From Paludisphaera soli (lineage in GTDB: Bacteria; Planctomycetota; Planctomycetia; Isosphaerales; Isosphaeraceae), in assembly GCF_011064595.1 (NCBI RefSeq), contig NZ_JAALJI010000018.1, positions 90,803-154,802 of the forward strand: a stretch of DNA of 64,000 nt, written 5' to 3'. The first letter of the stretch is position 1; every line of letters begins with the position of its first letter. Positions 11,683 to 28,089 of this stretch are shown piece after piece. The notes under the pieces were generated by a model, which searched no databases, had not been told where the DNA came from, and was given only the letters and a program-made list of their open reading frames with translations. Both the position numbers and the translations under genes were made by a program.

Positions 11683-11849
11683 CGGCAGGCGACAGGCGGG
11701 AGCGGCCCAGGGCTTCGGGACGAAGGCGCGGGGTGGGCCCTCGGCGAGGGGCGGCTCTTGCCCTTCTCGGTTTTCGGGGGGGCGGATAAGATCCGCGATC
11801 CTGAAGGATTCCGTGGAGGGTGGCCCGAGTACAGGGAGGTCTCGAGCCG

Positions 11850-14800
11850 ATGCGAAGCCGGCGACGATCGCGCGTGGGTTGGTGCCTGGTCCTGACGGCC
11901 GGGCTGGCGGGGACGGGGATCGGGACCAGGGCCTCGGCCCAGGGGCCGGCGTCGGTGGGGCCCGCGGACGCGCCCGAGGCGGCGGCCGCGCCGCCGCCGG
12001 GCGTCCTGCACGATGGGTTCGAGAGCTCGGCCGCCGTCTGGCGTCGGGAGCACACCGACACTACCATCAACCTCCTGGCCCAGGAGCGGTCCGACCGCGC
12101 CGCGCACGACGGCCGGCTGTCGGAGCGGTTCCAGTTCGAGGCCGAGCCGGGCAGCCAGTTCTTCGTGAGCTACCCGCTGCCGAACATCCCGGTCACCGAC
12201 GCCCTGGAGGCGTCGCTGAGCGTCCGGGCGAACCGGGCCGGGGCGCAGCTGTTCGTCCGGGTCGTCCTCCCCAAGGACGTGGACCCGGAGAGCCGGGCCC
12301 CGTCGTTCGTGCTGGTCCCCGGCACGGTCTTCGACCGGGTCGACCGCTGGCAGACGCTGGACGTGACCCAGATCCCCCCCGCGGTCGAGCGTCAGGCCCG
12401 CGTGCTGCGGGCGTCGTCGAACCGGCCGGTCCCGCTGGAAGGGGCCTACATCGACTGCGTGGTGGTCAACCTGATGGGGGGCCAGGGGGGCGCGGAGGTC
12501 TTCCTGGACGACCTCCAGGTCGGCCCCGTCGCGCCCGAGGTCGCCGCCTCGTGGACGCCCCCCGGCGTACGGCCGGAACGCCCCGAGGCCGAGGCCCTGC
12601 CGGACGCCTCCGCGCCGGCGTCGGCCCCGGCGGCCGTGGCCGAGGACGCCCCGCGAGGGAAGTACGACCGCATCCGGCTCGACCGCAACTACCTCAGCCG
12701 GCTGGAGGACGACCAGCGCCGGCATCCCTGGTTCCCGACCGCCGTCGAGGCCCCCGGGGCCGACGTGGTGGAGCTTCGGCGATACGGGTTCGACGTCCTG
12801 GTCGACTCCCACGACGCCGACCGCGACCGCCTGCAGGAGGCCGTCGACCACGGCTTCTCGCTGATGCCCCGGCTCTCGCGTCCGAAGGCCGGCGAGGGGA
12901 CCGACGCCCGGCTGAGGGAGGTGAAGGAGTATCCGTTCAAGGACGCCGCCGCCTTCTGGATGATCGGCGAGGACCTGGGCCGGAACCGCGAGCGAAAGTT
13001 CCGCGACGAGGAGCTGAAGCGGACCCGCGAGCTGATCCAGTCCCTCCACGCCCTGCCGCCGACCTTCTCTCGCCTGACCGTCGGCGAGGTCCGGGGCGAG
13101 CTCCCCCTCTACGCCCGCGCGCCTTCGAACCTGGACACGATCGCGATCCCGACCAACCACTGGGCCGCCGCCCAGGACCAGACCGAGTTCCACCGCTTCC
13201 TCCTCCAGCGCCGGGAGCTGACGGCCCGGGCGAACGCCGGCCAACTCTACTGGGCGATGATCCCGGCCGCGGCCCCCCGGGCCCTGGTGGAAAACATCTG
13301 GGGAGAGGCCCCGCCCCCCGCCTGGGGCGTCCCCCGGCCCCTGCCGGAGCACCTCCGGCTGATGACCTACCTGGCGCTCGCGGCCGGCTACCGCGGGCTG
13401 ATCTTCCAGGGCGACGCCGACCTCACCCGCCCCGCCGGCCGGCCCCTGCTGATCGAGTCGGCCCTGCTCAACATGGAGATCGACCTGGTCCAGGGGATCC
13501 TCGCCCGGAGCGCCGACCCGATCCCGGTCCACTCGGTCTTCGACCCCCCGCCGTCGGACCTGCCGCCGCCGGGGTCGATGCCGACGACGCGGGTGCGGCT
13601 GCAACCGGAGGCCAAGGCCAAGCCCTGGCACAAGGCGGCGGCGATCTCGGTGGACCGCCGTGGCGCCCTGCTGCTGATGTCGGACTACTCCGACCACGTC
13701 CAGTACCAGCCCCACCAGCTGGCCACCCGCGACCTGGTGGTCCGCGCCATCCTCCCCGAGGGGGTCGAGGCGTTCGACGTCAGCCCCGGCGGGGTGGACG
13801 TGCTGGAGCACAAGCGGGGCCCGGGCGGGACCTACGTCACGCTCGGGGAGTTCGGGGTCACCTCGATGATCCTCTGCACGACCGACATGGCGCTGAAGGA
13901 CCGGATCGAGGTCGCCATCGCGCGGGCCCGGCCGACGGCCGTGCAACTGGCCATCGAGCAGGCCGAGCTGATGCTCCAGCAGGTCGCCGAGATCAACGGC
14001 CGGCTCGCCGCCGACGGCGTGACGATCACCTCCCAGGAGGACGTGGCCCAGCGCCGGGCGCTGGGGCTGGACAAGCCCTTCAACGACGCGGCCGAGCTGC
14101 TGGCGCGGGCCGAGGCCAGCATCAAGTCGGCCCGCGAGGCCCGCGACCGCGAGGATTTCGGCCTGGCCTGGAAGGAGGCCCGGCGCGCCCACCGTCCGCT
14201 CCGCATCCTGGCCTTCGCCCACTGGGTCCAGGCCTACACCGCCCTGTCGAAGGCGGTGCCGTCCGACGCCTTCTCGCCCGACCCGCGCGAGTTCCGGGCC
14301 GTCAAGCGGTCCGACCCGCCGGTCCTGATGAAGCCGACGAGCTGCCCCCCCCTGACGACGTTCGCCACCCTCCCCGAGCTCTACGTCTGGCTCGACTGGA
14401 TCCGCGGCGCGGCCGGCTACGAGTTCGGGGCCAACCGCGTCCCCTCCGGGGCGTTCGACGACCCCGCGGCGATGGCCGACGAGGGCTGGATGAACATGAG
14501 CTACGAGGCCGAGGGGATCAAGCCGACCATGGCCGTCGTCGCCCCCGACGTGGGGGTCTCGCGCACCGACCCCGACGCCTCCCCCGACGCCCCGTCCGAC
14601 GACGGCAACACGGCGATCCGCATGAACGCCACCCCGATCAACCCCAAGGACCTGGAGACCACCCTGCCGCCGTTCGTCGACCACCCCCTGGTCGCCGTCC
14701 GCTCGCCGACCCTGAAGGTCCGGGCCAACAACCTGATCCGGATCTCGGTGCTGGTCCGCCGGCCGATCGAGTCGGCCGCGGGCGCGGGGGGGATCATCGT

Positions 14801-15185
14801 CCGCGACTCGCTCGGCGGCGAGGCCCTCCAGTTCCGGAGCACGGCCCCGATCGTCAACTGGTCGCGGGTCGTCCTGTTCCGCAAGGCCCCGGCCGATGGC
14901 GAGTTCAACGTGACCCTCGGCCTGGCGGGCTACGGTCAGGCCTGGTTCGACGACTTCCGCGTGGAGCTGGTCGAGCAGGATCGGGGCGACCTCCCGGTCG
15001 ACCCGGCCGACGGCCTCGCCGGCGACGAACCCGCCGCCGAGGACGCCGCCGCCGCCTCGACCTCCGCCGCCTCGGCCGATTCCGCCCCCGACCCCCGCCG
15101 CGAGTCCCGCGTCCCCCGCCTGCCCGACCCCCGGCTCCCCGCCACGGCCGGGTCGCCTGAACAAAACCCCGCCCGCCGACGTTGA
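11850..15185 (+). CDS. Large secreted protein of unknown function, 1,111 aa
   Basis: The ATG at 11850 has an excellent ribosome binding site (AGGGAGGT, 9 nt upstream) and gives a signal peptide (Arg-rich n-region, then WCLVLTAGLAGTGIGTRASA). Residues about 45-225 look like a strand-rich carbohydrate-binding-type module (VLHDGFESSAAVWRREHTDT to GGAEVFLDDLQVGP). The middle (about 270-560) has alternating strands and helices suggestive of a TIM-barrel: FDVLVDSHDADRDRLQEAVD, FWMIGEDLG, PPTFSRLTVGEVRG, YLALAAGYRGLIFQGDAD. After a helical region, about 880-1040 is another strand-rich module (NNLIRISVLVRRPI to AWFDDFRVELVE). A Pro/Ala tail ends the protein. A glycoside-hydrolase-like role is only inferred; no catalytic residues can be assigned. 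Confidence 0.85.
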   Translation: MRSRRRSRVGWCLVLTAGLAGTGIGTRASAQGPASVGPADAPEAAAAPPPGVLHDGFESSAAVWRREHTDTTINLLAQERSDRAAHDGRLSERFQFEAEPGSQFFVSYPLPNIPVTDALEASLSVRANRAGAQLFVRVVLPKDVDPESRAPSFVLVPGTVFDRVDRWQTLDVTQIPPAVERQARVLRASSNRPVPLEGAYIDCVVVNLMGGQGGAEVFLDDLQVGPVAPEVAASWTPPGVRPERPEAEALPDASAPASAPAAVAEDAPRGKYDRIRLDRNYLSRLEDDQRRHPWFPTAVEAPGADVVELRRYGFDVLVDSHDADRDRLQEAVDHGFSLMPRLSRPKAGEGTDARLREVKEYPFKDAAAFWMIGEDLGRNRERKFRDEELKRTRELIQSLHALPPTFSRLTVGEVRGELPLYARAPSNLDTIAIPTNHWAAAQDQTEFHRFLLQRRELTARANAGQLYWAMIPAAAPRALVENIWGEAPPPAWGVPRPLPEHLRLMTYLALAAGYRGLIFQGDADLTRPAGRPLLIESALLNMEIDLVQGILARSADPIPVHSVFDPPPSDLPPPGSMPTTRVRLQPEAKAKPWHKAAAISVDRRGALLLMSDYSDHVQYQPHQLATRDLVVRAILPEGVEAFDVSPGGVDVLEHKRGPGGTYVTLGEFGVTSMILCTTDMALKDRIEVAIARARPTAVQLAIEQAELMLQQVAEINGRLAADGVTITSQEDVAQRRALGLDKPFNDAAELLARAEASIKSAREARDREDFGLAWKEARRAHRPLRILAFAHWVQAYTALSKAVPSDAFSPDPREFRAVKRSDPPVLMKPTSCPPLTTFATLPELYVWLDWIRGAAGYEFGANRVPSGAFDDPAAMADEGWMNMSYEAEGIKPTMAVVAPDVGVSRTDPDASPDAPSDDGNTAIRMNATPINPKDLETTLPPFVDHPLVAVRSPTLKVRANNLIRISVLVRRPIESAAGAGGIIVRDSLGGEALQFRSTAPIVNWSRVVLFRKAPADGEFNVTLGLAGYGQAWFDDFRVELVEQDRGDLPVDPADGLAGDEPAAEDAAAASTSAASADSAPDPRRESRVPRLPDPRLPATAGSPEQNPARRR

Positions 15186-15687: not shown

Positions 15688-18189
15688 ATGGCGAAGATCC
15701 AGTCCGTCTGGGCGATCGACATCGGCCAGGCCGCGCTGAAGGCGCTCAAGCTGGCCCCCGGGGGGGACGCCGAGCACGTCACCGCCGAGGCGTTCGACTT
15801 CATCGAGTATCCCAAGCTCCTCAGCCAGCCCGACGCCGACCCCGAGGAGCTGGTCCGCGAGGCCCTGGCGACGTTCACCGACCGCAACGACCTGAAGGGC
15901 TGCCGGGTGGCCATCGCCGTCCCCGGCCAGGCCGGCCTGGTGAAGTTCATCAAGCTGCCTCCGGTCGAGAAGAAGCGGATCCCGGACATCGTCAAATTCG
16001 AGGCCAAGCAGCAGATCCCGTTCGCCCTCGAGGAGGTCGTCTGGGCCTACCAGCAGATCGGCGACGACGACGAGGAGGGGGACGACGACGAGTTCATGAT
16101 GGCCGAGGTCGGCCTCTTCGCCATGAAGCGGGACCAGATCGCCCGCGCCATCCTCCCCCTGACCGTCGCCGGCATCGAGGTCGACGTCGTCCAGATGGCC
16201 CCGATCGCCCTGTACAACTACATCACCTACGACCAGATCAAGGGGAGCGGCTCCAAGGACTCGGTGGTCCTCCTGGACATCGGGGCCGACAACACCGACC
16301 TGATCATCACCGACGGCGTGCGGATCTGGCAGCGGAACGTGCCGATCGGCGGCAACCACTTCACCCGGGCCCTGACCAAGGAGCTGAAGCTCACCTTCGC
16401 CAAGGCCGAGCACCTGAAGCGGAACGCCACCAAGGCCCCCGACCCCCGCGCCATCTTCACCGCCATGCGGGGCGTGTTCAACGACTTCGCCAGCGAGGTC
16501 AACCGCTCGATCGGCTTCTATTCGAGCATCAACCGGACGGCCAAGATCCGCAAGGTGGTGGGCCTGGGCAACGGCTTCAAGCTGCCGGGGCTCCAGAAGT
16601 TCCTCCAGCAGAACCTCAGCCACGAGGTCGAGAAGGTCGACGAGTTCAAGAGGCTGGAAGGCGACGAGGTCAAGGCGGCGCCCCAGTTCCAGGACAACCT
16701 GGCGTCGTTCGCCGTCGCCTACGGCCTGGCGCTGCAGGGGGCGGGCCGGTCGGCCCTGCGGACCAACCTGCTGCCGCCGGAGATGGAGACCATCCGCCTG
16801 ATCCGGGCCAAGAAGCCCTGGGCGCTGGCCGCCTCGGCCCTGATCATGCTGGGCCTCAGCTCGCTGTTCGTGCTGGGCGACTACCGGGCGCTCGCCAAGA
16901 TCTCCACCCCGCAGTTCAAGTCGGCCGTCGACCAGGCGACCGGCGTCTCCAAGAACGGGGCGTCGATCAAGAGCGGCCTCGACACCGCCAAGTCCGAGTG
17001 GCAGGCCAAGTACGACGAGGGCAAGGCCCTGATCATCGACCCCTCCAACAAGGGGATGTGGCCCGCCTTCCTCAAGACCGTCAGCGGCTACTTCCCCGAC
17101 CCCGTCGCCGACTACGGGCTCAACCCCAACGAGCCCAAGAACGAGTACCTGATCGAGAAGCTCCGCCTCCACATCGACCGGATCATGCCGGTCTGGCGCA
17201 CCGACCTCGCCGTCGACTGGTTCGACGAGCTCGACCCGCTCTACAAGCGGCTCATGCACCCCTACGACGCCGAGAACCCGCCGACCGGCGAAGGCTGGAT
17301 CGTCCAGGTCGTGGCGCACCACTACAACCCGTACCCCAACGCCGAGCAGCTCCGTCTCCCCGTCGACGACCCCCGCCGGGTCGACTTCGGCCCCTACGAG
17401 TTTCTCGTCCGCAAGGTGCTCCGCAAGCTCAACTCCCCCTCGCTGCGGCTCTACGGCGTCACCCACGTCGCCCTGGCCTGGATGAACACCGACAAGAACT
17501 GGACCAACGAGAAGGGGAGCCAGACCAACAACCTCGCCAGCCGGACCGTCCCCCTCCTCGACCGCGCCGCTCCTCCGGTTGAAGAAGGCGGCGCAGGCGA
17601 GATGGGAATGATGGGCGGGATGATGGGGAGTATGATGGGGAGCATGAGTTCCGGCATGATGGGAGGCCGGGGCGGCCGAATGGGTGAGATGGGCGGCATG
17701 GGCATGGAAGGTATGATGGGCATGGGGAGCATGATGCCCGGCATGATGGGCCCCGGCGGGATGCGCGGCATGGGCGGACCGAACGCCGAGGCCGAGAAGA
17801 ACATCCGCAAGCTCACCCGCACCGACTTCCTGCTCCAGTTCGTCTGGATCCCTCCCGCGCCCAGCGAGGAGGACAAGGACAAGACCCCCGAGGAGCTGCT
17901 GGAAGCCCGCAAGGCCCAGCTCCAGGAGATCGTCGGCAAGATGAGCGAGGCCGAGAAGGGGAACTCGGCGGTCACGATCCCGGTGTCCGAGGCCGAGATC
18001 GAGAAGGCCTCCACCAAGAAGTCCGACGAGATCGACAGCGCCATCACCAAGGCCCTGAGCGCCCCCGCGCCGGGGACCCCGGGTGCCCCCGCCGCCAAGG
18101 GAGCGACGCCCCCCGCCGCCCCGGGCGCCGCGACGCCCCCGGCCGCCAAGGGCGCGGCGGCACCGGCCGAGGCCGCCCCCAAGTCCTGA
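15688..18189 (+). CDS. pilM: PilM-type pilus assembly ATPase fused to a PilN-like half
   Basis: An 833-aa protein; ATG 15688 has GAGAGGAG about 9 nt upstream. Residues 1-350 are an actin-like PilM domain: WAIDIGQAALKALKL phosphate-1 loop, LPPVEKKRIPDIVKFEAKQQ, VVLLDIGADNTDLII phosphate-2 loop (193-207) and VVGLGNGFKLPGL adenosine motif (290-302). TNLLPPE at 359-365 matches the cytosolic motif with which PilN normally binds PilM. It is followed by one membrane helix (about 378-396, WALAASALIMLGLSSLFVLG) and a periplasmic region. Residues about 635-700 are a Met-Gly tract, then LTRTDFLLQFVWIPPAPSEE and an Ala/Pro tail. Usual PilM is about 350 aa, so this is a fusion. It is first of four co-directional genes ending with a secretin. 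Confidence 0.92.
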   Translation: MAKIQSVWAIDIGQAALKALKLAPGGDAEHVTAEAFDFIEYPKLLSQPDADPEELVREALATFTDRNDLKGCRVAIAVPGQAGLVKFIKLPPVEKKRIPDIVKFEAKQQIPFALEEVVWAYQQIGDDDEEGDDDEFMMAEVGLFAMKRDQIARAILPLTVAGIEVDVVQMAPIALYNYITYDQIKGSGSKDSVVLLDIGADNTDLIITDGVRIWQRNVPIGGNHFTRALTKELKLTFAKAEHLKRNATKAPDPRAIFTAMRGVFNDFASEVNRSIGFYSSINRTAKIRKVVGLGNGFKLPGLQKFLQQNLSHEVEKVDEFKRLEGDEVKAAPQFQDNLASFAVAYGLALQGAGRSALRTNLLPPEMETIRLIRAKKPWALAASALIMLGLSSLFVLGDYRALAKISTPQFKSAVDQATGVSKNGASIKSGLDTAKSEWQAKYDEGKALIIDPSNKGMWPAFLKTVSGYFPDPVADYGLNPNEPKNEYLIEKLRLHIDRIMPVWRTDLAVDWFDELDPLYKRLMHPYDAENPPTGEGWIVQVVAHHYNPYPNAEQLRLPVDDPRRVDFGPYEFLVRKVLRKLNSPSLRLYGVTHVALAWMNTDKNWTNEKGSQTNNLASRTVPLLDRAAPPVEEGGAGEMGMMGGMMGSMMGSMSSGMMGGRGGRMGEMGGMGMEGMMGMGSMMPGMMGPGGMRGMGGPNAEAEKNIRKLTRTDFLLQFVWIPPAPSEEDKDKTPEELLEARKAQLQEIVGKMSEAEKGNSAVTIPVSEAEIEKASTKKSDEIDSAITKALSAPAPGTPGAPAAKGATPPAAPGAATPPAAKGAAAPAEAAPKS
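17599..17784 (+). repeat. Met-Gly low-complexity tract in the PilM/PilN protein
   Basis: Degenerate in-frame repeats of ATGATGGG and GGCATG encode runs such as MGMMGGMMGSMMGSMSSGMM. Similar tracts occur in the next two genes (19072-19578; 20737-20790, 21325-21537, 22201-22277). Confidence 0.85.
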
Positions 18190-18291: not shown

Positions 18292-20115
18292 ATGGATCAA
18301 GTCAAGGATATCCTCCGGCAGATCGCCCGGTACCGATTCTGGATCTCCGTCTGCATCGCGGCCATGCTCTCGGCCGGGGCGTACGTCCTCGGCTCGGGCC
18401 CGGTCCAGAAGCAGACCGCCGACGAGACCGGCAAGATCACGTCGGCCTACAAAGACGTCCAGCAGTATGCCAGCAGCACCGTCCCCACCGGCGACTTCGC
18501 CCCGATCGTGGAGCAGAAGACGGCCGTCCTGACCAAGGACGTCGACACCGCCTGGCGGAAGCTCTACGATCGCCAGGCACCCCTCCTGACCTGGCCCGAG
18601 ACCGTCTCGGAGCGGTTCACCAAGTGGGGCCGCAAGTGGCCTGAGGACGTCGCCCCGAGCGCCGTGACGCTCGCCATCGTCGACTACGTCGAGGCCTACG
18701 ACCCCTACGTCGATCAGGTCTTCAAGGTCTTCCGGCCGTTCGACTACGAGACCGGTGAGGGGGTGGTCGCCTCGGCACCCAAGGAGCAACTCCTCCGCCC
18801 CGTCAAGTTCGACCTCAATTCCAAGCCCCCCCGCCTCGGCGACGTCTGGTCCGCCCAGGAACGGCTCTGGGTCCAGCGCACCGCCCTCGAGGTGATCGCC
18901 GCCGTCAACCGCGGCGCCAAGGACTGGAACTCCGCCTACATCAAGGAGATCAAGGCCCTGGAAGTCGGCAGCGCCCTGGCCCAGGACCAGCGTTCGCTCG
19001 CCGCCGGCGAGGAGCTGGAAGAAGCCGAATCCATCCTCGCCCCGGGTGAGACCGAGGAAGAGGAAGAAACCGGCGGCATGGGCGAGATGGGGATGATGGG
19101 CGGCATGATGGGCGAGGCGATGAGTCGCCGTAGTGGAATGATGGGCGGCGGCGGCGGCCCCGCGGCCGGCACCAACGAGGCCGAGAGCGTCCTCTTTCTC
19201 AAGCCCGAGAACGCCACCCAGTACAAGATCCTGCCGATCATGCTGACCGTGCTCGTCGATCAGGACCACGTCCAGGATCTGCTCGTCGAGCTGGAAAACT
19301 CGCCCATGTCCATCGAGGTCCGTGACTTCGAATTGCTCCGACCCACCGAGAAGGTCACGAAACCCGAGAAGGGCGAGCAGTTCATGGGTGGCTACGGCAT
19401 GATGGGAATGATGGGGATGATGGGTGGCCGCGGTCGCGGCGGCATGCAGGGTTATGGTGGGATGATGTCCGGCATGATGGGTGGCCGCGGCGGCCGCATG
19501 GACGAGATGGGAATGGCCGGAATGATGGGGGGCATGGGCCCCGGCATGGGCGGCATGGGTGCCATGGGAGGAATGAACACCCGGAAGGGCGTCGACAAGC
19601 GTGGCGAGAACCGCGCCGAGAAGCGCAAGGAAGACGAGAAGGCCCTGGCGGCCTCCCGCCCCGTCGTCAACTTCGACGCCTACTTCAACATCGTCGAGGT
19701 CACCGTCTACGGTCAGGCCCGCTTCTATAACGATCCGGCCCTGGAGCCCGCGGCGACCGATTCGCTGGGCGAGGCCGGTGCCGAGGCCGAGACGCCCGCG
19801 GAACCGACTGCGGAAACGACCCCGGGCGAAGCCCCCGCCGAGACCCCGGCCGTCGAGACTCCGGCCGCCGAGACCCCGAAGGCCGACGCCTCGCCGACGG
19901 AGGCCACTCCGGCCGAGGCGCCGAAGGCGGAAGCGGCCCCGGCGGACGCGCCGAAGACGGATGCGCCCCCGGCCGAGACCCCCGCGGCCGAGGCGCCGAA
20001 GGCGGAAGCGGCCCCGGCCGCGCCCGCCCAGCCGGCCGAGGCGCCGAAGGCGGAAGCGACCCCGGCCGCGCCCGCCCAGCCGGCCGAGGCGGATGCGGCG
20101 GCCCCCCAACCCTGA
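18292..20115 (+). CDS. Inner-membrane-anchored component of pilus-like apparatus, Met-Gly rich
   Basis: A 607-aa protein starting at ATG 18292 (GAGG 9 nt upstream; a TTG at 18283 would add three residues). One N-terminal membrane helix (about 16-34, FWISVCIAAMLSAGAYVLG) places the rest in the periplasm, as in PilN/PilO. Residues about 40-235 are helical and strand-mixed; about 260-290 and 365-430 are Met-Gly tracts that flank a strand-rich block (YKILPIMLTVLVDQDHVQDL then LVELENSPMSIEVRDFELLR). That block ends with VNFDAYFNIVEVTVYGQARF and resembles a PilO-like ferredoxin fold by pattern only. The last 115 residues are an Ala-Pro-Glu-Lys repeat. It lies 102 nt after the PilM/PilN gene, in a gap with a GC hairpin. 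Confidence 0.85.
   Translation: MDQVKDILRQIARYRFWISVCIAAMLSAGAYVLGSGPVQKQTADETGKITSAYKDVQQYASSTVPTGDFAPIVEQKTAVLTKDVDTAWRKLYDRQAPLLTWPETVSERFTKWGRKWPEDVAPSAVTLAIVDYVEAYDPYVDQVFKVFRPFDYETGEGVVASAPKEQLLRPVKFDLNSKPPRLGDVWSAQERLWVQRTALEVIAAVNRGAKDWNSAYIKEIKALEVGSALAQDQRSLAAGEELEEAESILAPGETEEEEETGGMGEMGMMGGMMGEAMSRRSGMMGGGGGPAAGTNEAESVLFLKPENATQYKILPIMLTVLVDQDHVQDLLVELENSPMSIEVRDFELLRPTEKVTKPEKGEQFMGGYGMMGMMGMMGGRGRGGMQGYGGMMSGMMGGRGGRMDEMGMAGMMGGMGPGMGGMGAMGGMNTRKGVDKRGENRAEKRKEDEKALAASRPVVNFDAYFNIVEVTVYGQARFYNDPALEPAATDSLGEAGAEAETPAEPTAETTPGEAPAETPAVETPAAETPKADASPTEATPAEAPKAEAAPADAPKTDAPPAETPAAEAPKAEAAPAAPAQPAEAPKAEATPAAPAQPAEADAAAPQP
19795..20112 (+). repeat. Ala-Pro-Glu-Lys coding repeat
   Basis: Short in-frame repeats of GCCGAGGCGCCGAAGGCGGA encode APKAEA-type motifs, with duplicated longer blocks near 19918-19950 and 19990-20090. 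It forms the C-terminal tail of the 607-aa protein and looks like a flexible periplasmic, possibly cell-wall-spanning, linker. Confidence 0.75.
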
Positions 20116-20201: not shown

Positions 20202-22298
20202 ATGGCCAACGCCACTGCGGAAAAGCTCAAGAACTTCGGCCTGAGGTTCGGCGACAAGATCGCCGTGGCCCTGGCCTCGGTCCTCTTCGTCTTGTGTCTG
20301 GTCAGCGCCCTGCAGCGGCCGACGATCGACGTCTCGCCAGAGCAGATCAAGAAGGCGGCCGAGCAGTCCGACTCCAACCTGCGCCGCAAGGTCCCGACCG
20401 ATCAGATCGTCGAGACCCTGGCCGAGGGGGGCCTCAAGAATTCCGACTTCGCCAAGGAGGCCGAGAAGTCGTCGCAGATGGTCCTCGTGGCGGCCGACTT
20501 CAAGCCCCGCCGCGAGTGGGTGGTACCTGAACCGGGCGCGGGCCTGATCCGCGACCAGCCCGAACTGATCGCGCCGACCGACGTCTTCGCCTATCCCGGC
20601 CGCGGCGGGGCGCTCGTGTACGCCCTCGACGCCGAAGGGAACCGGATCGTCGAGACCGAGACGAAGGAGCCGCCGAAGTCCACCACCTTCCGCCGCAACC
20701 GTCGCGGTCGTCGCGGCGGTGGAGGCTCGTCGAGCATGATGGGAAGCATGATGGGCGGAATGGGCGGCATGGGCATGGAAGGCATGATGGGCGGGGCCCC
20801 TCGGACCCCTGAGGAGGAGAAGGCCCAGAAGGCCGAGTACGAACGCCGCAAGCGTGAAATGCAGGCCCGCCTGGCCGGCAAGGACGCGCCCGCCAAGGAC
20901 GAGCCCGAGGATCCGGCCACGAAGGGCCAGGGCCCGCCCGCCAAGGAGATCACCAAGGGGCTGCGCTGGGTCGCCCTGACCGCGACCCTCGACCACAAGC
21001 AGATGCTCGACAACTACCGCTCGGCGCTCAAGAACCCGGCGATCGCCCACCCCAACTACTCCCGCCTGGACGTCCAGCGTCAGGCGAAGCAGAAGGACGG
21101 CTCCTGGAGCGATTGGGCCGACGTCTCGGCCGACCGCAACCTGGAAATCCTCGACAACCTGCCGATGGAGGACGAGGAACTCGCCCCCGATACCGTCCGC
21201 CCCTCGAACCTCGTCGACCCCCTGCCGTTCCTGACCACCGGCCTCTGGGAGAAGGTCCACATCGCCAGCCTGGTCCCCAAGGAGTTGAAGGACATCCCCG
21301 ACCCGACCGCGGCCGGCCAGGGAGGCATGATGGGCCGGGGCGGCATGATGGGAAGCATGATGGGGGGCATGATGGGCATGGAAAGTGAGATGGGCGGCAT
21401 GATGGGCGGCTCCGGCATGATGGGCGGCTCCGGCATGATGGGCCGGGGCTCCGGCAGCATGATGGGCATGGCCGGCATGATGGGCATGGAAGGTGAGATG
21501 GGCGGAATGATGGGCGGCTCCGGCATGATGGGGGGCGGGGCCACCGAGACCCTGGCCAACTTCTGGCGGTCCGAGGAAGAGAAGGTGATGATCCGCGCCC
21601 TGGACTTCACCGCCCAGCCGGACGAGAGCTACCGCTACCGGGTCCGGATCGTGGTCTACAACCCGAACCTGAGCCGGGACGACGTCTCGCCGGGCGTGGA
21701 CACCAAGTCCGAGACGCTGCCAGGCCCCTGGAGCGAGACGACGGCCGAGGTCCACATGCCGCCGGACGTGACCGCTTACGCGATGGGGACGCTCCCCGCC
21801 ACGCCCAAGTCGGAGATGAAGGTGGTGTTCCAGGTCGTGAAGTTCAACCCGGAAGACGGCATGATCCTGCCCCGGAACTTCGAGGCCAGCCCCGGCGAGA
21901 TCATCGGCGACCCGCGATCGGCCCCGATCCCGACGTCGGACGGCACGGGCCAGAAGACGAAGCTCGTGGACTTCAACAGCCACCTGATCGTGCTGGACGT
22001 GGCCGGCGGCCTCAAGCCGCTGCCGGAGGACTTCCCGGGCAACGTGATCGCCCAGCCGGCCGTCGCCCTGCTGCTGCGTCCCGACGGGGCCGTGGAGCTC
22101 CGGGACGAGGCCGAGGACCGTCCCGACGAGGTCCGCAAGGACGTCGAGAGCAACTACAAGCGCGAGCTCAAGGAGTCCGACAAGGTCCGCTCCAGCTCCA
22201 TGGGGGGCGGCTACGGCGACATGATGGGCGGGATGGGCTCCGGGATGATGGGCGGCTCCGGGATGATGGGCGGCGGCACCGGCCGCGGCCGTCGTTGA
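20202..22298 (+). CDS. Second inner-membrane-anchored component of pilus-like apparatus, Met-Gly rich
   Basis: A 698-aa protein; GGAG precedes ATG 20202. A short cytosolic start (MANATAEKLKNFGLRFGDK) leads to one membrane helix (about 20-38, IAVALASVLFVLCLVSALQ), so most of the protein is periplasmic. Met-Gly tracts lie at about 178-196, 375-445 and the last 35 residues. Between them are folded blocks: LRWVALTATLDHKQMLDNYR, PDESYRYRVRIVVYNPNLSR and SHLIVLDVAGGLKPLPEDFP. I recognise no named domain; position between PilN/O-like and secretin genes suggests a periplasmic alignment or PilP-like role. The gene is followed by a strong terminator at 22352, so the secretin may also be transcribed from its own promoter. 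Confidence 0.83.
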   Translation: MANATAEKLKNFGLRFGDKIAVALASVLFVLCLVSALQRPTIDVSPEQIKKAAEQSDSNLRRKVPTDQIVETLAEGGLKNSDFAKEAEKSSQMVLVAADFKPRREWVVPEPGAGLIRDQPELIAPTDVFAYPGRGGALVYALDAEGNRIVETETKEPPKSTTFRRNRRGRRGGGGSSSMMGSMMGGMGGMGMEGMMGGAPRTPEEEKAQKAEYERRKREMQARLAGKDAPAKDEPEDPATKGQGPPAKEITKGLRWVALTATLDHKQMLDNYRSALKNPAIAHPNYSRLDVQRQAKQKDGSWSDWADVSADRNLEILDNLPMEDEELAPDTVRPSNLVDPLPFLTTGLWEKVHIASLVPKELKDIPDPTAAGQGGMMGRGGMMGSMMGGMMGMESEMGGMMGGSGMMGGSGMMGRGSGSMMGMAGMMGMEGEMGGMMGGSGMMGGGATETLANFWRSEEEKVMIRALDFTAQPDESYRYRVRIVVYNPNLSRDDVSPGVDTKSETLPGPWSETTAEVHMPPDVTAYAMGTLPATPKSEMKVVFQVVKFNPEDGMILPRNFEASPGEIIGDPRSAPIPTSDGTGQKTKLVDFNSHLIVLDVAGGLKPLPEDFPGNVIAQPAVALLLRPDGAVELRDEAEDRPDEVRKDVESNYKRELKESDKVRSSSMGGGYGDMMGGMGSGMMGGSGMMGGGTGRGRR

Positions 22299-22512: not shown

Positions 22513-22665
22513 ATGAACACCTCGACTCGACGCGTCGGGAGGGATTTTCGTTTCACTTGGGTTGAAGACCCCGTCCTGGTGTACCTGGACGGGTTCCGGG
22601 CGCAGCTGCCGCACAAATTGTCTCTCGCCGTGGGACTCGAACGAAGGCCGCTCTCAGGGATGTAG
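22513..22665 (+). CDS. Possible small protein or leader peptide, 50 aa
   Basis: An ATG at 22513 opens 50 codons ending at TAG 22663-22665. The translation contains FTWVEDPVLVYLDGFRAQLP and HKLSLAVGLERRPLSGM, which looks more protein-like than the other frames here. The ribosome binding site is weak (TTTGGATG). The frame lies wholly between the candidate promoter and the secretin start at 22700. It could be a leader peptide or chance; a near-palindrome at about 22572-22590 suggests RNA structure instead. I do not recognise it. Confidence 0.3.
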   Translation: MNTSTRRVGRDFRFTWVEDPVLVYLDGFRAQLPHKLSLAVGLERRPLSGM

Positions 22666-22699
22666 GCGGTCGTCCGCGTGGCGGCGAAAGGAGGTCGCG

Positions 22700-25600
22700 T
22701 TGAGAAGGCTCAGAACGCTCACTTTCATCATGGTCCTCGGTGCAGGGGGGGGAGCGTCCACGGAAGGTGCGACCCTCGACGACGCGGTCGCCTCGCCGTC
22801 ATCGACGACGGCCCGGAAGCCGTCGCCGGCGCCCCCGGTCAAGTATCTGGAGGCGGGGGCCAAGCTCTTCAACGGCGGGCAGTTCGACCTGGCCGCCAAG
22901 TATCTCGATGCGGCCCAGCTGTATCGCGATCAATTGGAGCCGGCCCACCAGGCCCTGCTCGACGAATATGCGAGGGAGCTCAAGAAGGTCAAGGGGACGG
23001 TCCTGGCGGCCGCCCCGGCCCCGGCGCCGGCCGCAACGCCGGCCGCCGCGGCGGTGACGCCGTCGGCCTCGTCGCCGGCGATCGCCGAGGCCCGCCCGGT
23101 CTCGCGTACGGAATCGGCCCCGGCCTCGGCCCGGCCCGAAGACCCGGACGCGAAGCAGCGGGGCCGCTGGCTCCTGCAGGAGGCCGGCGAGCAGATCCTG
23201 CTCGGCGACTACGACGCCGCCGAGGCGAAGATCGCCGAGGCCGAGGCCCTGAACGTCAAGTGGGGGCTCTTCGACGTGACGCCGGCCAAGGCCCGCGCGT
23301 CGCTGGCGAAGGCCCGCCCGAAGGGGGCCCCGGCCGCCGCGGGCAAGGCCGTGCAGGTGGCGGACCACAAGACCGCCAAGGCCAAGCTCAAGGAGGCCCG
23401 CACCGCCCTGGACGACCGCAAGTTCGAGGTCGCCGAGGCCATCGCGCTGGAGGTCAAGGGCTGGAACCTGTCGTACGGCATGTTCGAGGACAACCCGGAG
23501 AAGGTGGCGGCCGCCGCCCGCGCCCTCCGCAAGCGTGACGCGATCCGCGGCACGCCGAGCCGGGACCAGGCCAGCCCGGGCGTCTACGACGTGCTGGTCC
23601 AGGAGTCCCGCGAGCTGTTGAAGGCGGGCAAGCTGGCGGAGGCCGAGTCCAAGGCCCGCCAGGCCCAGCGCATGAACGTCGTCCCGGCCCTGACCGCCGA
23701 CCGGGCGGAGGCCGTGCTGCACGAGGTCGCCATGGCCCGCGCCGCCGGCGACGCCGCCCCGACCGTCGCGGCCGCCCCGGCCGAGACCGTGGAGCGCGAG
23801 GCCGACGCCCTGCTCGCCAAGGGCGACCAGGCCGCGGCCGCCGCCAAGTTCGCCGAGGCCGACCGGCTCCGCGCCCAGGGCGCCGGCCTGCCGGCCCTCG
23901 CCGTCGCCTCCCCGCGGATCGACGACCAGGTGCAGAAGAGCGGGGCCGAGGAGCCCGCTCTCGACGCGCCGGGACTCGAACTCGCCCCGGCCCCCGCCCT
24001 CGCGGCGGACGCCGACGACCTCGCCGCCCCGGCCCCGGCCCCGGCCGAGGCCCCGGCCCCCGCCCTCGCGGCGGACGCCGACGACCTCGCCGCCCCGGCT
24101 CCGGCCGCGGCCCCGGCCCTCGCCGACGTCGACGCCGACGCGGCCCCGGGCAAGCCCGGCGATCGGATGCTGTCCCAGGCCAAGGCCCTCTACTCCGAAG
24201 GCAACTACGCGGCCGCCCGGCAGCTCGCCGAGCAGGTCAAGGCCGGCGGCTTCGGCCTCGAGGACGAGGCCGACGAGCTGTCCGCCCAGGTCGGCCTCGC
24301 CGAGCAGGGGGGCGCCCTCAGCCTGTACGAGTCCGCCCTCACCGCGATGCGGCAGGGTGAGAAGGATCGGGCCAGGAACCTGCTGACCGAGGTCGCCTCG
24401 GCCGGCTCGGTCCTCGACGAGAGCCTCCAGGCCAAGGTCCAGGAGCTGCTCAAGTCCCTGACCACCGACCAGATCGGCGATCCCGCCGGTCGGGCCGTCG
24501 TCAACGACCGGATGCAGAGCGCCAGCGACGTCGAGAGCGTCGCCGCCCAGAAGCTCAACGCCGAGGTCGGCGCCAAGATCGCCGAGGCCCGCCGGCTCCA
24601 GGAAGTCGACCCCGAGAAGGCCCTGGCCATCTACGAGCAGACCCTCAAGGCGGTCAAGGCCTCGGAAGTCGCCCCCAACCTCCAGCGTCCGATGGTCCGC
24701 CGCCTCGAGGTGGCCGTCGAGCTCGCCAAGAAGGACAAGGTCCTCTTCGACGAGAAGATGAAGGAGAAGGGCGCCCGCGAGGAGATCGAGGTCAAGCGGC
24801 TGCGGATCCTCGAGGCCGACAAGGCCAAGAAGGCCCGCTACAAGGAGCTGTTCGAGAAGGCCCAGGCGGCCTACGCCACCGAGGACTTCTACCGCGCCGA
24901 GTCCTACGCCAAGCAGGCCATGGAGATCGACCCCACCGAGGTCGCCGCCCCCATGATGGTCTTCAAGGCCAAGGCCGAACGCCGGTACAAGCAGGACAAG
25001 GACACGAAGGCCGCCAAGGAGGACGCCGTGGTCGTCGCCCTCCAGGAAGTGGACCGCGCGTCCTACGCCGACCCCGAGGTCCAGCTCCGGGACATCAGCT
25101 TCCCGAAGAGCTTCAACGACCTGACCAAGAGCCGCCTGGCGATGAACAAGCGGCTGGAGCCCAAGAAGAACCCCAAGACCCTGGCGGTGGAGACCAAGCT
25201 CCGCGAGCCCATCAGCGTCAACTTCGACAAGCAGCCGCTCGGCGAGGCCATGGCGTTCATCAGCAACTACACCGGGGTGAACATCACGATCGACCCGAAG
25301 GCGCTCAGCGACGAGGGCCTCACGTCCTCGACGCCGGTGTCGCTGAACCTGGCGAACGTGTCGCTCAAGACGGTGCTGAAGCTCATGCTCAAGCCCCTGG
25401 GCATGAACTACACGATCGAGGAAGACGTCCTCGTCGTCACCAACAACCAGGCCTCGAGCCAGGAGACGTTCACCAACACGTACTACGTCGGCGACCTGAT
25501 CGTGCCCAAGTCGAAGACCGGCCAGGAGACGGCCGGCTCGGCGTTCAGCCCGATCAAGGTGCCCAACGCCGACGGGACCGGCGGGGCCCAGGGGATCCCC

Positions 25601-27199
25601 CTGGGGGCGACCACGCCCGGGGCGCCGACGGCCGTCGGCCAGGAGCGGCCCGAGGTGAACATGGCCCCCCTGATCCAGCTCATCACCGCCTCGATCGCGC
25701 CCAACACCTGGCGGGTCATCGACGGCGGCGAGAACGGCCAGGACGTCTCGGCGGCCTACGGCCTCGGCGGCGGCTTCGGCGGCGGCGGCGGGGCGGGCGG
25801 CGACATCGACGCGGGGCGTCCCCCCGGCTCGATCACGCCGTTCTTCCTCAGCATCAGCCTGATCATCCGCCACACGGCCGAGGTGCATGAACAGGTCGCC
25901 GACCTGCTCCGCCAGCTCCGCCGGCTCCAGGACCTGCAGGTCTCGATCGAGGTCCGGTTCATCACGGTCACCGACTCGTTCTTCGAGCAGATCGGCGTCG
26001 ACTTCGACTTCGCCATCAACTCCAAGAGCGTGGGCAAGCAGAGCACCTGGGCCTACCCGAACAACACCGTCACCAACCAGTTCGGGGCGCCCGGCGGCGG
26101 CGGCACGACCGGCGGCGGCGGCGGGATCGGCGGCGGCGGCGGCACGACCGGCGGCGGCACGACCGGCGGCGGCACGACCGGCGGCGGCACGACCGGCGGC
26201 GGGGCCGGCGGGATCGGCGGCGGCGGGGCCGGCGGGATCGGCGGCGGCGGGGCCGGCGGCGGCATCGGCGGCGGCGGGATCGGCGGCGGCGGGGCCGGCG
26301 GCGGGATCGGCGGCGGTGGCGGCACGACCGGCGGCGGCGGCGGCAACACCACGCCCGCCTACCTGATCAACCCGATCCGCGACTACTCCAACTACCTCCC
26401 CGGCGGCAAGCAGCCGATCGTGGTGGGGACGCAGGGGGGCGGGCTCTACAACTTCTCGCCGAACCTGCAGATCCCGTTCACCAACACCCAGGGGAGCCTG
26501 ATCGCCCCGTTCAACACGGTGGCCGGGGCCGGCGCCTCGCTGGGCATGGCGTTCCTGAGCGACCTGGAAGTCTACTTCTTCCTCACGGCCGCCCAGGGCG
26601 ACACCCGCAACAACATCCTCCAGGCGCCCAAGGTGACCACCTTCAACGGCGCCGCGGCCACGATCCAGAACGGCGACGTGCAGTACTTCGTCTCGTCGCT
26701 GCTGCCGATCATCGGCCCCGGCTCGGTGGCCTTCCAGCCCCAGGTCACGCCGCTGAACAACGGCGTCTTCCTGACGGTCACCCCGGTCGTCACGGCCGAC
26801 CGCCGGTACGTCCGGCTGAGCCTGTCGCCGCAGTTCACGATCGTCAACGGCTTCACCACGATCTCGGTCCCGGCCGCGGTCGGCGGGGCCGGCCTGGGCG
26901 GCGCCTCGGCGGCGATCAACGGCACGATCCAGCTGCCGAACTTCACCTTCACCACCGTCAACACCACGGTCACCGTCCCCGACGGCGGCACGGTGCTGCT
27001 CGGCGGCGTCAAGCAGCTCCAGGAACAGCGTCTGGAGTACGGCGTCCCCGTCCTCTCCAAGACCCCCTGGATCGACCGCCTCTTCCGCAACGTCGGCATC
27101 GGCCGCACGTCCTCCAGCCTCATGCTGATGGTGACCCCCCGGATCATCATCCTCGAGGAAGAGGAAGAGCGGCTGGGCATCCCCTCGGTCGCCTTCTGA
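22700..27199 (+). CDS. Type II/IV-type secretin with TPR-like N-terminal half
   Basis: A 1,499-aa outer-membrane secretin. The start is a TTG at 22700 with AAAGGAGGT directly upstream; it yields a signal peptide (RRLRTLTFIMVLGAGGGAST). Residues about 45-800 are helical repeats resembling TPRs (YLEAGAKLFNGGQFDLAAKY, LSQAKALYSEGNYAAARQLA) with Ala/Pro linkers. About 833-920 is a secretin N/STN domain (ISVNFDKQPLGEAMAFISNY). A second N-domain precedes a long Gly-Thr-rich insert (about 1131-1216). The secretin domain follows to the C-terminus with VPDGGTVLLGGVKQLQ, YGVPVLSKTPWIDRLFRNVG and SSLMLMVTPRIIILEEEEE. It is about twice the usual length of GspD or PilQ. It would be the outer-membrane pore for the upstream PilM/N-type proteins. 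Confidence 0.95.
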   Translation: MRRLRTLTFIMVLGAGGGASTEGATLDDAVASPSSTTARKPSPAPPVKYLEAGAKLFNGGQFDLAAKYLDAAQLYRDQLEPAHQALLDEYARELKKVKGTVLAAAPAPAPAATPAAAAVTPSASSPAIAEARPVSRTESAPASARPEDPDAKQRGRWLLQEAGEQILLGDYDAAEAKIAEAEALNVKWGLFDVTPAKARASLAKARPKGAPAAAGKAVQVADHKTAKAKLKEARTALDDRKFEVAEAIALEVKGWNLSYGMFEDNPEKVAAAARALRKRDAIRGTPSRDQASPGVYDVLVQESRELLKAGKLAEAESKARQAQRMNVVPALTADRAEAVLHEVAMARAAGDAAPTVAAAPAETVEREADALLAKGDQAAAAAKFAEADRLRAQGAGLPALAVASPRIDDQVQKSGAEEPALDAPGLELAPAPALAADADDLAAPAPAPAEAPAPALAADADDLAAPAPAAAPALADVDADAAPGKPGDRMLSQAKALYSEGNYAAARQLAEQVKAGGFGLEDEADELSAQVGLAEQGGALSLYESALTAMRQGEKDRARNLLTEVASAGSVLDESLQAKVQELLKSLTTDQIGDPAGRAVVNDRMQSASDVESVAAQKLNAEVGAKIAEARRLQEVDPEKALAIYEQTLKAVKASEVAPNLQRPMVRRLEVAVELAKKDKVLFDEKMKEKGAREEIEVKRLRILEADKAKKARYKELFEKAQAAYATEDFYRAESYAKQAMEIDPTEVAAPMMVFKAKAERRYKQDKDTKAAKEDAVVVALQEVDRASYADPEVQLRDISFPKSFNDLTKSRLAMNKRLEPKKNPKTLAVETKLREPISVNFDKQPLGEAMAFISNYTGVNITIDPKALSDEGLTSSTPVSLNLANVSLKTVLKLMLKPLGMNYTIEEDVLVVTNNQASSQETFTNTYYVGDLIVPKSKTGQETAGSAFSPIKVPNADGTGGAQGIPLGATTPGAPTAVGQERPEVNMAPLIQLITASIAPNTWRVIDGGENGQDVSAAYGLGGGFGGGGGAGGDIDAGRPPGSITPFFLSISLIIRHTAEVHEQVADLLRQLRRLQDLQVSIEVRFITVTDSFFEQIGVDFDFAINSKSVGKQSTWAYPNNTVTNQFGAPGGGGTTGGGGGIGGGGGTTGGGTTGGGTTGGGTTGGGAGGIGGGGAGGIGGGGAGGGIGGGGIGGGGAGGGIGGGGGTTGGGGGNTTPAYLINPIRDYSNYLPGGKQPIVVGTQGGGLYNFSPNLQIPFTNTQGSLIAPFNTVAGAGASLGMAFLSDLEVYFFLTAAQGDTRNNILQAPKVTTFNGAAATIQNGDVQYFVSSLLPIIGPGSVAFQPQVTPLNNGVFLTVTPVVTADRRYVRLSLSPQFTIVNGFTTISVPAAVGGAGLGGASAAINGTIQLPNFTFTTVNTTVTVPDGGTVLLGGVKQLQEQRLEYGVPVLSKTPWIDRLFRNVGIGRTSSSLMLMVTPRIIILEEEEERLGIPSVAF
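26091..26346 (+). repeat. Gly-rich simple repeat inside the secretin gene
   Basis: About 255 bp of GGCGGCGGC-based repeats encode GGGTTGGG and GGIGGGGAGG motifs with no frame break. It interrupts the region between the last N-domain and the secretin pore. The unit GGCGGCACGACC is tandemly repeated four to five times at about 26130-26200. Confidence 0.9.
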
Positions 27200-27381: not shown

Positions 27382-28089
27382 ATGAGCCCGCTGATCCTGT
27401 CCGCGACCGTCCTGGCGACCCTGGGCTGGCAGGCCCCCGACGCCGAGCCGGCCGAGCCCCCCGCCGCCTTCAAGCCCGACCCCGCCTGGAAGCCCCTGGG
27501 GCGCAGCCTCTGGTTCGACGCCGCCTCGGAGCCCAAGCGGCTGATCGTCCGGGCCCGCGTCGCGTTCCGCGAGGGCCCGCTGGAGCACATGGTCTGCCTG
27601 CGGGGCACCAAGGAGCACGAATCGATCCTGGCGACCGACGCCCCCCCCACCCAGATCCACGCCGGGCTCCTCCTGACCGGCGCCGAGCCCGGCGGGCCCG
27701 TCCGCTTCAAGCCCGAGTTCCGCCCCCCCCACGGGCCGGCGATCGCCCTGACCGTCCGCTGGATGAAGGACGGCGAGGTCGCCGAGGCCGACGCCCGCAC
27801 CTGGATCCTCGACGAGAAGACGAAGAAGGACCTCGACGTCGACTGGGTCTTCGCCGGCAGCATCCTCTACGAGGACCCGGTCACCCGGAAGTCCGTCTAC
27901 GCCGCCGAGGAGGGGGACCTGATCACCGTCGCCAACTTCGCGAGCGCGATCCTCGACCTCCCCATCGTCAGCTCGGCCGACGACGCCGAGCGGACCTTCG
28001 TCGCGCACACCGATCGCATCCCCCCGATCGGGACCGAGGTCCAGCTCATCCTCAGCCCCCGGCCCGCCAGGGCCGCGAAGGCCCCATGA
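27382..28089 (+). CDS. YdjY domain-containing protein
   Basis: A 235-aa protein with a short signal-like N-terminus (MSPLILSATVLATLGWQAPD). The body matches what I recall of the YdjY domain of planctomycete proteins: SLWFDAASEPKRLIVRARVA, FREGPLEHMVCLRGTKEHES, then IHAGLLLTGAEPGGPVRF and DVDWVFAGSILYEDPVT. The domain is periplasmic or extracellular and its function is unknown. The ATG at 27382 is preceded by GAGGAGCC. It follows the secretin on the same strand across a hairpin, so it is probably a separate unit. Confidence 0.85.
   Translation: MSPLILSATVLATLGWQAPDAEPAEPPAAFKPDPAWKPLGRSLWFDAASEPKRLIVRARVAFREGPLEHMVCLRGTKEHESILATDAPPTQIHAGLLLTGAEPGGPVRFKPEFRPPHGPAIALTVRWMKDGEVAEADARTWILDEKTKKDLDVDWVFAGSILYEDPVTRKSVYAAEEGDLITVANFASAILDLPIVSSADDAERTFVAHTDRIPPIGTEVQLILSPRPARAAKAP

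Follow-up and report, generated by a model that had tools for sequence, protein, structure and literature searches.

In type IVa pilus (T4aP) systems such as those of Myxococcus xanthus (3jc8) and Thermus thermophilus (2ych), PilM and PilN are encoded separately. The available text of PMC5805733 cites an engineered Pseudomonas aeruginosa PilM:PilN1-12 chimera (5eou) together with the T. thermophilus complex for a pocket of PilM that holds a conserved PilN motif. In GspL/PulL of type II secretion, according to those parts of the literature that were accessible, PilM and PilN have already been described as fused in one chain. Here we describe a further such protein from a 64,000-nucleotide stretch of the Paludisphaera soli genome (contig NZ_JAALJI010000018.1, positions 90,803 to 154,802; the window, whose own numbering is used for coordinates). 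A single open frame on its forward strand, 15688-18189, encodes a product of 833 residues, hereafter P0001. We hold with high confidence that in P0001 a PilM domain continues end to end into a PilN-like part and that the protein is likely a fused subunit of a type IV pilus (T4P)-type machine. "The class" below is that of the source organism, Planctomycetia.

The N-terminal part of P0001 has the actin-like PilM fold by two family models: PilM_2 (PF11104) matches residues 10-350 with an E-value of 1.4e-36 and 126.6 bits (cut-off 27), and the NCBIfam pilM model TIGR01175 matches residues 7-351 with 167.7 bits (cut-off 133). Beyond it lies TNLLPPE, at residues 359-365; across all six frames, the window has no other [TIV]NLLPPE. 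A hydropathy scan of P0001 finds one membrane helix, at 377-398, and the order of a docking motif ahead of one membrane helix is that of a PilN. A preliminary description of this DNA had read the first 350 residues as PilM, TNLLPPE as the motif by which a separate PilN docks into PilM, and the whole as the two partners in one polypeptide with a single membrane helix. These observations are confirmed, and the interpretation as a PilM-PilN fusion is supported by the open 833-residue frame, the PilM domain, the motif, the helix and the PilN kinship of what follows.

That kinship is seen most clearly in profile comparisons with A3, which aligns 17 true PilNs from split loci of other planctomycetes. 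The fused family after residue 353 matches A3 with an hhalign probability of 98.0% (E 2e-13, 123 columns), and control comparisons of the same part gave 35.7% for PilO, 28.7% for the next gene and 6.4% for the gene after next. Without the motif the values were 95.4% for PilN versus 39.8% for PilO, and the fused part is thus closer in profile to PilN than to PilO. Profile positions 344-466 of the fused family also match the M. xanthus PilN of known structure (3jc8_Na) at E 4.7e-6. Near the start of the PilN-like periplasmic region the family has a conserved R-x-L-W, the site of K455-G-M-W in P0001; position 455 is R in 107 of 117 homologues and K in the other 10, P0001 among the latter. The distance from the motif proline to this site is 84-92 residues in 104 of the 117 fused homologues and 85-86 residues in 14 of the 17 split PilN rows, those that were readable.

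The AlphaFold2 model of P0001 has helices at 364-405 and 408-448, after which the predicted periplasmic order is alpha 483-492, beta 495-504, beta 536-545, alpha 569-581, beta 591-605 and beta 709-720, with small helices between. An alpha-beta-beta-alpha-beta-beta order is described for PilN and PilO in the accessible portion of the literature, and the predicted elements of P0001 appear to fit it; the domain that they would form is predicted to be ferredoxin-like. Four results weigh against a PilN-like assignment: the periplasm alone matches PilN weakly (67.7%, versus 0.7% for PilO), its model has no clear match among solved structures, its profile found no PilN in the PDB, and the piece of P0001 from residue 383 onward matched no family. 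The Pfam PilN model (PF05137) has no match in P0001; of two true split PilNs tried with it, it misses one (L007) and scores the other (L118) below its cut-off.

The weak periplasmic match, the lack of a clear fold match or PDB profile match and the large inserts held by the periplasmic part would all suit a PilM with an unrelated membrane tail, in which the motif and helix are PilN-like and the periplasmic domain is specific to the lineage. We regard this as unlikely, because R-x-L-W follows the motif at nearly the split-PilN spacing, the predicted element order is that of PilN/PilO, and the same periplasm, taken alone, scores below 1% in hhalign against PilO and the operon neighbours. The earlier proposal that the part after residue 358 is PilN-like therefore stands as regards sequence profile and element order, and falls short as regards the periplasm taken alone and a match to a solved structure. 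On the favoured reading as PilM joined to PilN, P0001 has the domains, motif, helix and R-x-L-W of the separate PilM and PilN of M. xanthus, T. thermophilus and the split planctomycete systems, with order and spacing unchanged; those are two chains from two genes, whereas P0001 is one chain with large periplasmic inserts.

The two parts are joined at a nearly fixed distance. Among 117 aligned homologues, the invariant glycine at the end of PilM (G346) and the invariant motif proline (P363) are 16 residues apart in 116, and 13 residues lie between P363 and the P377 column in all 117; L361 is L in 116 and N360 is N in 95. Split PilMs end 6-9 residues past the same glycine (19 rows, with 8 the commonest value in 11 of them), and in split PilNs the motif proline is preceded by 7 residues (16 of 17 rows) or by 8 (the remaining row). 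Since the 16-residue spacing is close to the sum of such a PilM tail and such a PilN start, the fusion is, judged by these spacings, an end-to-end join with almost nothing added. The 5eou chimera is built alike, running from PilM directly into the PilN docking peptide, and the family profile aligns with it from GLAL to INLLP, 5eou being one residue longer; it differs from P0001 in being man-made and in carrying the first 12 PilN residues only. The agreement in length with 5eou, together with the PilM pocket reported in PMC5805733, makes docking of the motif into the groove within the same chain plausible.

The same join recurs in independent genomes. P0001 is matched in 192 of 198 genomes of the class, and in each of the 49 other class loci that were read (L054-L102) PilM is followed in the same open reading frame (ORF) by the motif or by one close to it, of which TTLLPPE, GNLIPKE and NSLVPRE are examples. 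A pattern search of 80 loci from named records found the motif with the basic-proline pattern in one ORF in 74, and three more (L144, L145 and L205) were recognized by eye, for a total of 77; L143 and L147 were not counted either way. These loci include Singulisphaera acidiphila, Tautonia sociabilis, Aquisphaera insulae and Thalassoglobus neptunius. In one of them, L146 (Singulisphaera sp. GP187), the frame breaks right past TNLLPP. The protein nearest to P0001 is from Planctomyces sp. SH-PL62, and the others listed are named Paludisphaera or Isosphaeraceae. Because 49 of 49 other class loci keep the motif after PilM, chance read-through or a local frame or assembly error is rejected, and with the spacing constant as well, the probability that a sequencing error has joined two genes is negligible. 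The rarity that the preliminary description had implied is not borne out, as the fusion is common to all the class loci read, has fused-type matches through the phylum and has a known precedent in GspL/PulL.

Across the phylum, PilM_2 is matched in 291 of 294 genomes, in both short and long frames, and 273 of 288 genomes contain a match to the fused-family profile at 1e-10; among the fused-family matches listed, all save one (G067) extend past model position 410, beyond PilM. In a quick, midpoint-rooted tree of 89 PilM domains, for which the program warns of long branches, a branch with a Shimodaira-Hasegawa-like approximate likelihood ratio test (SH-aLRT) value of 100 separates 41 of the 42 fused-labelled rows, together with four labelled "other", from all 31 split rows, 12 "other" rows and L104. 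The rows were picked by two different searches, which favours two sides. The labels were given by script: L104 was wrongly called fused owing to a proline-rich tail, L083 (GNLIPKE) and L096 (NSLVPRE) were called "other" despite their motif variants, and the label "other" was likewise given to P0266 and P0356, which the tree places on the fused side. Both forms can occur in one genome, as in G107, where a single contig holds a fused gene at 9291548-9293179 and a split one at 8496296-8497297, and in G071 (L022 and L111). The fused type thus appears to be a lineage apart from split PilM, sometimes found beside it. Proline/alanine-rich PilM tails occur in other planctomycete families (L029/L115, L113 and L114; L104, L106, L107 and L117); in the first of these two groups the tail includes hydrophobic segments, with a second, short PilM nearby.

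Gene order distinguishes the two types. Outside the class, the planctomycete gene after PilM encodes a separate PilN that starts M-I-R-I-N-L-L-P-P-E or a variant of it. Such a PilN is seen in 18 of the 19 distinct split loci, the exception being L006, whose next picked ORF is not a PilN. A PilO-type gene comes after PilN as a rule, where the locus extends far enough. In the fused loci the gene picked after PilM-N is the PilO-position gene in 10 of 11; for L089 no following gene was picked, yet an ORF is present 370 bases on. None of the following genes in fused loci opens with the docking motif, the SLLP of L102 sitting inside a membrane segment.

A separate PilN gene elsewhere in the genome had been named in the preliminary description as evidence that would speak against the fusion. 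None was found with either the Pfam PilN model or A3, neither of which gave a match in the P. soli genome up to E 10. The Pfam model is weak for Planctomycetota and A3 was hence used alongside it, with a control on 26 genomes that contributed nothing to A3, 16 outside the class and 10 within it, P. soli included. All 16 outside the class were matched, at E 3.2e-27 or better, and none of the 10 class genomes was, save weakly G167 and G205 (E 0.04-0.05). A3 has blind spots, missing the fused PilN itself and giving no match in G048, G152, G238 and G283, four class genomes that have a PilN-type gene by the Pfam model; the negative is thus limited to PilNs within the reach of the two models. The P. 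soli genome has a single PilM_2 match. Of 20 class genomes, 11 have a Pfam PilN-type match, and 10 of those 11 also hold a second PilM_2 match (G048, G069, G152, G167, G181, G205, G227, G238, G283 and G291). Because the two matches coincide, these ten relatives likely have a second, split machine beside the fused one.

P0001 has PilM-like and PilN-like parts in one chain, with a PilM-like cytoplasmic domain, one membrane helix and a PilN-like periplasmic domain, and in this layout it resembles GspL. On that account it could belong to type II secretion, as a GspL, and not to a pilus as PilM-PilN. A fused relative from outside the class, L111, matches T2SSL (PF05134) with E 3.6e-5 and 23.7 bits (cut-off 25.5), and the listed homologues P0245, P0274, P0275 and P0279 bear a precomputed PF05134 tag. 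P0001 itself, however, scores as PilM, above the cut-offs of both PilM models, retains the PilN docking motif and has a large periplasmic part. The GspL model finds the split PilM L007 (1.1e-5) better than the fused L111 (0.03) or L112 (0.013). As P0001 matches neither PF05134 nor the GspL model TIGR01709, we reject the GspL identity, which we judge improbable. GspL is not known to carry the PilN docking motif.

The fused family may extend beyond the phylum. NF045709, a 608-residue model of the Amuc_1101 family and the sole link to that protein, is matched by P0001 over model positions 1-427, including the linker and helix, with 210.5 bits; the equivalog cut-off is 650, and P0001 is therefore not a member. 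When residues 340-560 of P0001 are taken alone, 346-465 still match model positions 344-457 (E 5.7e-6); a true split PilN gives a weak match at 355-480 (E 0.013). Since both match the model past PilM, Amuc_1101 of Akkermansia muciniphila likely carries a PilN part too. The protein is called PilM in PMC13174399 and FtsA in PMC6828834 and PMC5332112, and the available portions of these three papers do not describe it as carrying PilN.

The features of the fused gene and the genes that follow it are collected in Table 1. Genes of the same kind as 18292-20115 follow PilM-N in other fused loci. The products of 18292-20115 and 20202-22298 matched no known family in Pfam or NCBIfam; with their relatives they score 0.8-1.5% against split PilO in profile comparison, and the two families have about 31 N-terminal columns in common (67.3-93.6%). 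Methionine/glycine-rich loops are found in the fused protein and in both following gene products, with 18-21 methionines in the richest 50 residues of each. At least 10 methionines per 50 residues after residue 400 occur in 114 of the 120 closest listed homologues of P0001 versus 0 of 240 from two other searches.

Table 1. Features of the fused gene, its product and the downstream genes, in window coordinates
Feature	Position	Strand	Basis or remark
Fused PilM-PilN gene	15688..18189	+	ATG start; GAGAGGAG upstream; 833 aa
PilM actin-like domain, residues 1-350	15688..16737	+	
Junction, residues 347-358	16726..16761	+	Length about that of split PilM tail plus PilN start
PilN docking motif TNLLPPE, residues 359-365	16762..16782	+	Motif scan; family profile aligned with INLLP of 5eou
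Single membrane helix, residues 377-398	16816..16881	+	Hydropathy scan; model helix 364-405
Predicted periplasmic long helix (coiled coil), residues 408-448	16909..17031	+	AlphaFold2 models
PilN-like periplasmic region, residues 452-720	17041..17847	+	Models; profile match to split PilN
Methionine/glycine-rich low-confidence loop inside the periplasmic domain, residues 632-697	17581..17778	+	Predicted local distance difference test (pLDDT) <50; up to 21 Met/50 residues
Next gene, PilO position (by place only)	18292..20115	+	Short N-terminus, membrane segment, Met/Gly loop
Third gene, PilP position (by place only)	20202..22298	+	One N-terminal membrane segment, Met/Gly loops
Secretin, PilQ/GspD kind	22562..27199	+	ORF of 1545 aa, which may overextend the gene at its start

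The secretin ORF has a PF00263 domain at residues 1344-1529 (E 1.8e-26) and is matched by the PilQ model TIGR02515 at 9.9e-29, under that model's cut-off. It is very long, with a weak STN domain at 916-960 besides the secretin domain. Directly past it, at 27382-28089, lies a gene for a YdjY-domain protein (NF040466, E 8.5e-57). Upstream of the fused gene, the product of the preceding same-strand ORF (11820-15185) matched no Pfam family. A promoter and terminator scan gave nothing useful. The P. soli genome has eight PF00437 (T2SSE) matches, none on the contig of P0001, and thus holds both a secretin and ATPases of the PilB/GspE type, as a T4P-type machine would.

Judged by sequence, P0001 is most likely the inner-membrane PilM-PilN subunit of a T4P-type machine. 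Its PilM side would face the motor ATPases. The partner of its PilN side, and its route to the secretin, would be the next gene product, with the ATPase side linked to the secretin via the next two gene products. The motif would dock in the PilM groove of the same chain or of a neighbouring one, a proposal made because the join has about the length of that in the engineered chimera. The ratio of PilM to PilN would be fixed at 1:1, with PilM held at the membrane, and PilM could then no longer leave PilN to swap partners. Binding of PilN reportedly alters the partners of PilM, a result attributed to McCallum in 2016; in that case a fused protein would be expected to stay in a single state.

We found no published PilM-PilN fusion in planctomycetes or Akkermansia, in a search whose coverage took in few subscription papers and preprints. 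The new part is modest: a pilus-side counterpart of GspL that retains the docking motif, in the class loci read and widely matched over the phylum. It is possible, and we offer it tentatively, that an old T4P machine lineage runs over Planctomycetota and reaches Amuc_1101, in which PilM is hard-wired to PilN, the motif sits permanently in its own groove and partner exchange is gone; some planctomycetes would operate an ordinary split machine alongside, and the P. soli genome has apparently retained only the hard-wired one.

The fusion would be a natural copy of the construct with which crystallographers studied PilM-PilN docking, conserved in a class and distributed through a phylum, and a parallel to GspL that still bears the docking motif. 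Many database entries named PilM only, and Amuc_1101 with them, likely carry the missing PilN too. With the fusion it can be tested cleanly whether pilus dynamics require PilM to come off PilN, and Planctopirus limnophila is genetically tractable, its pilQ genes having been deleted according to the available text of PMC11958385. With PilM and its PilN-like partner in one chain, the inner ring of these machines would likely be kept clipped to the membrane, much as in type II secretion.
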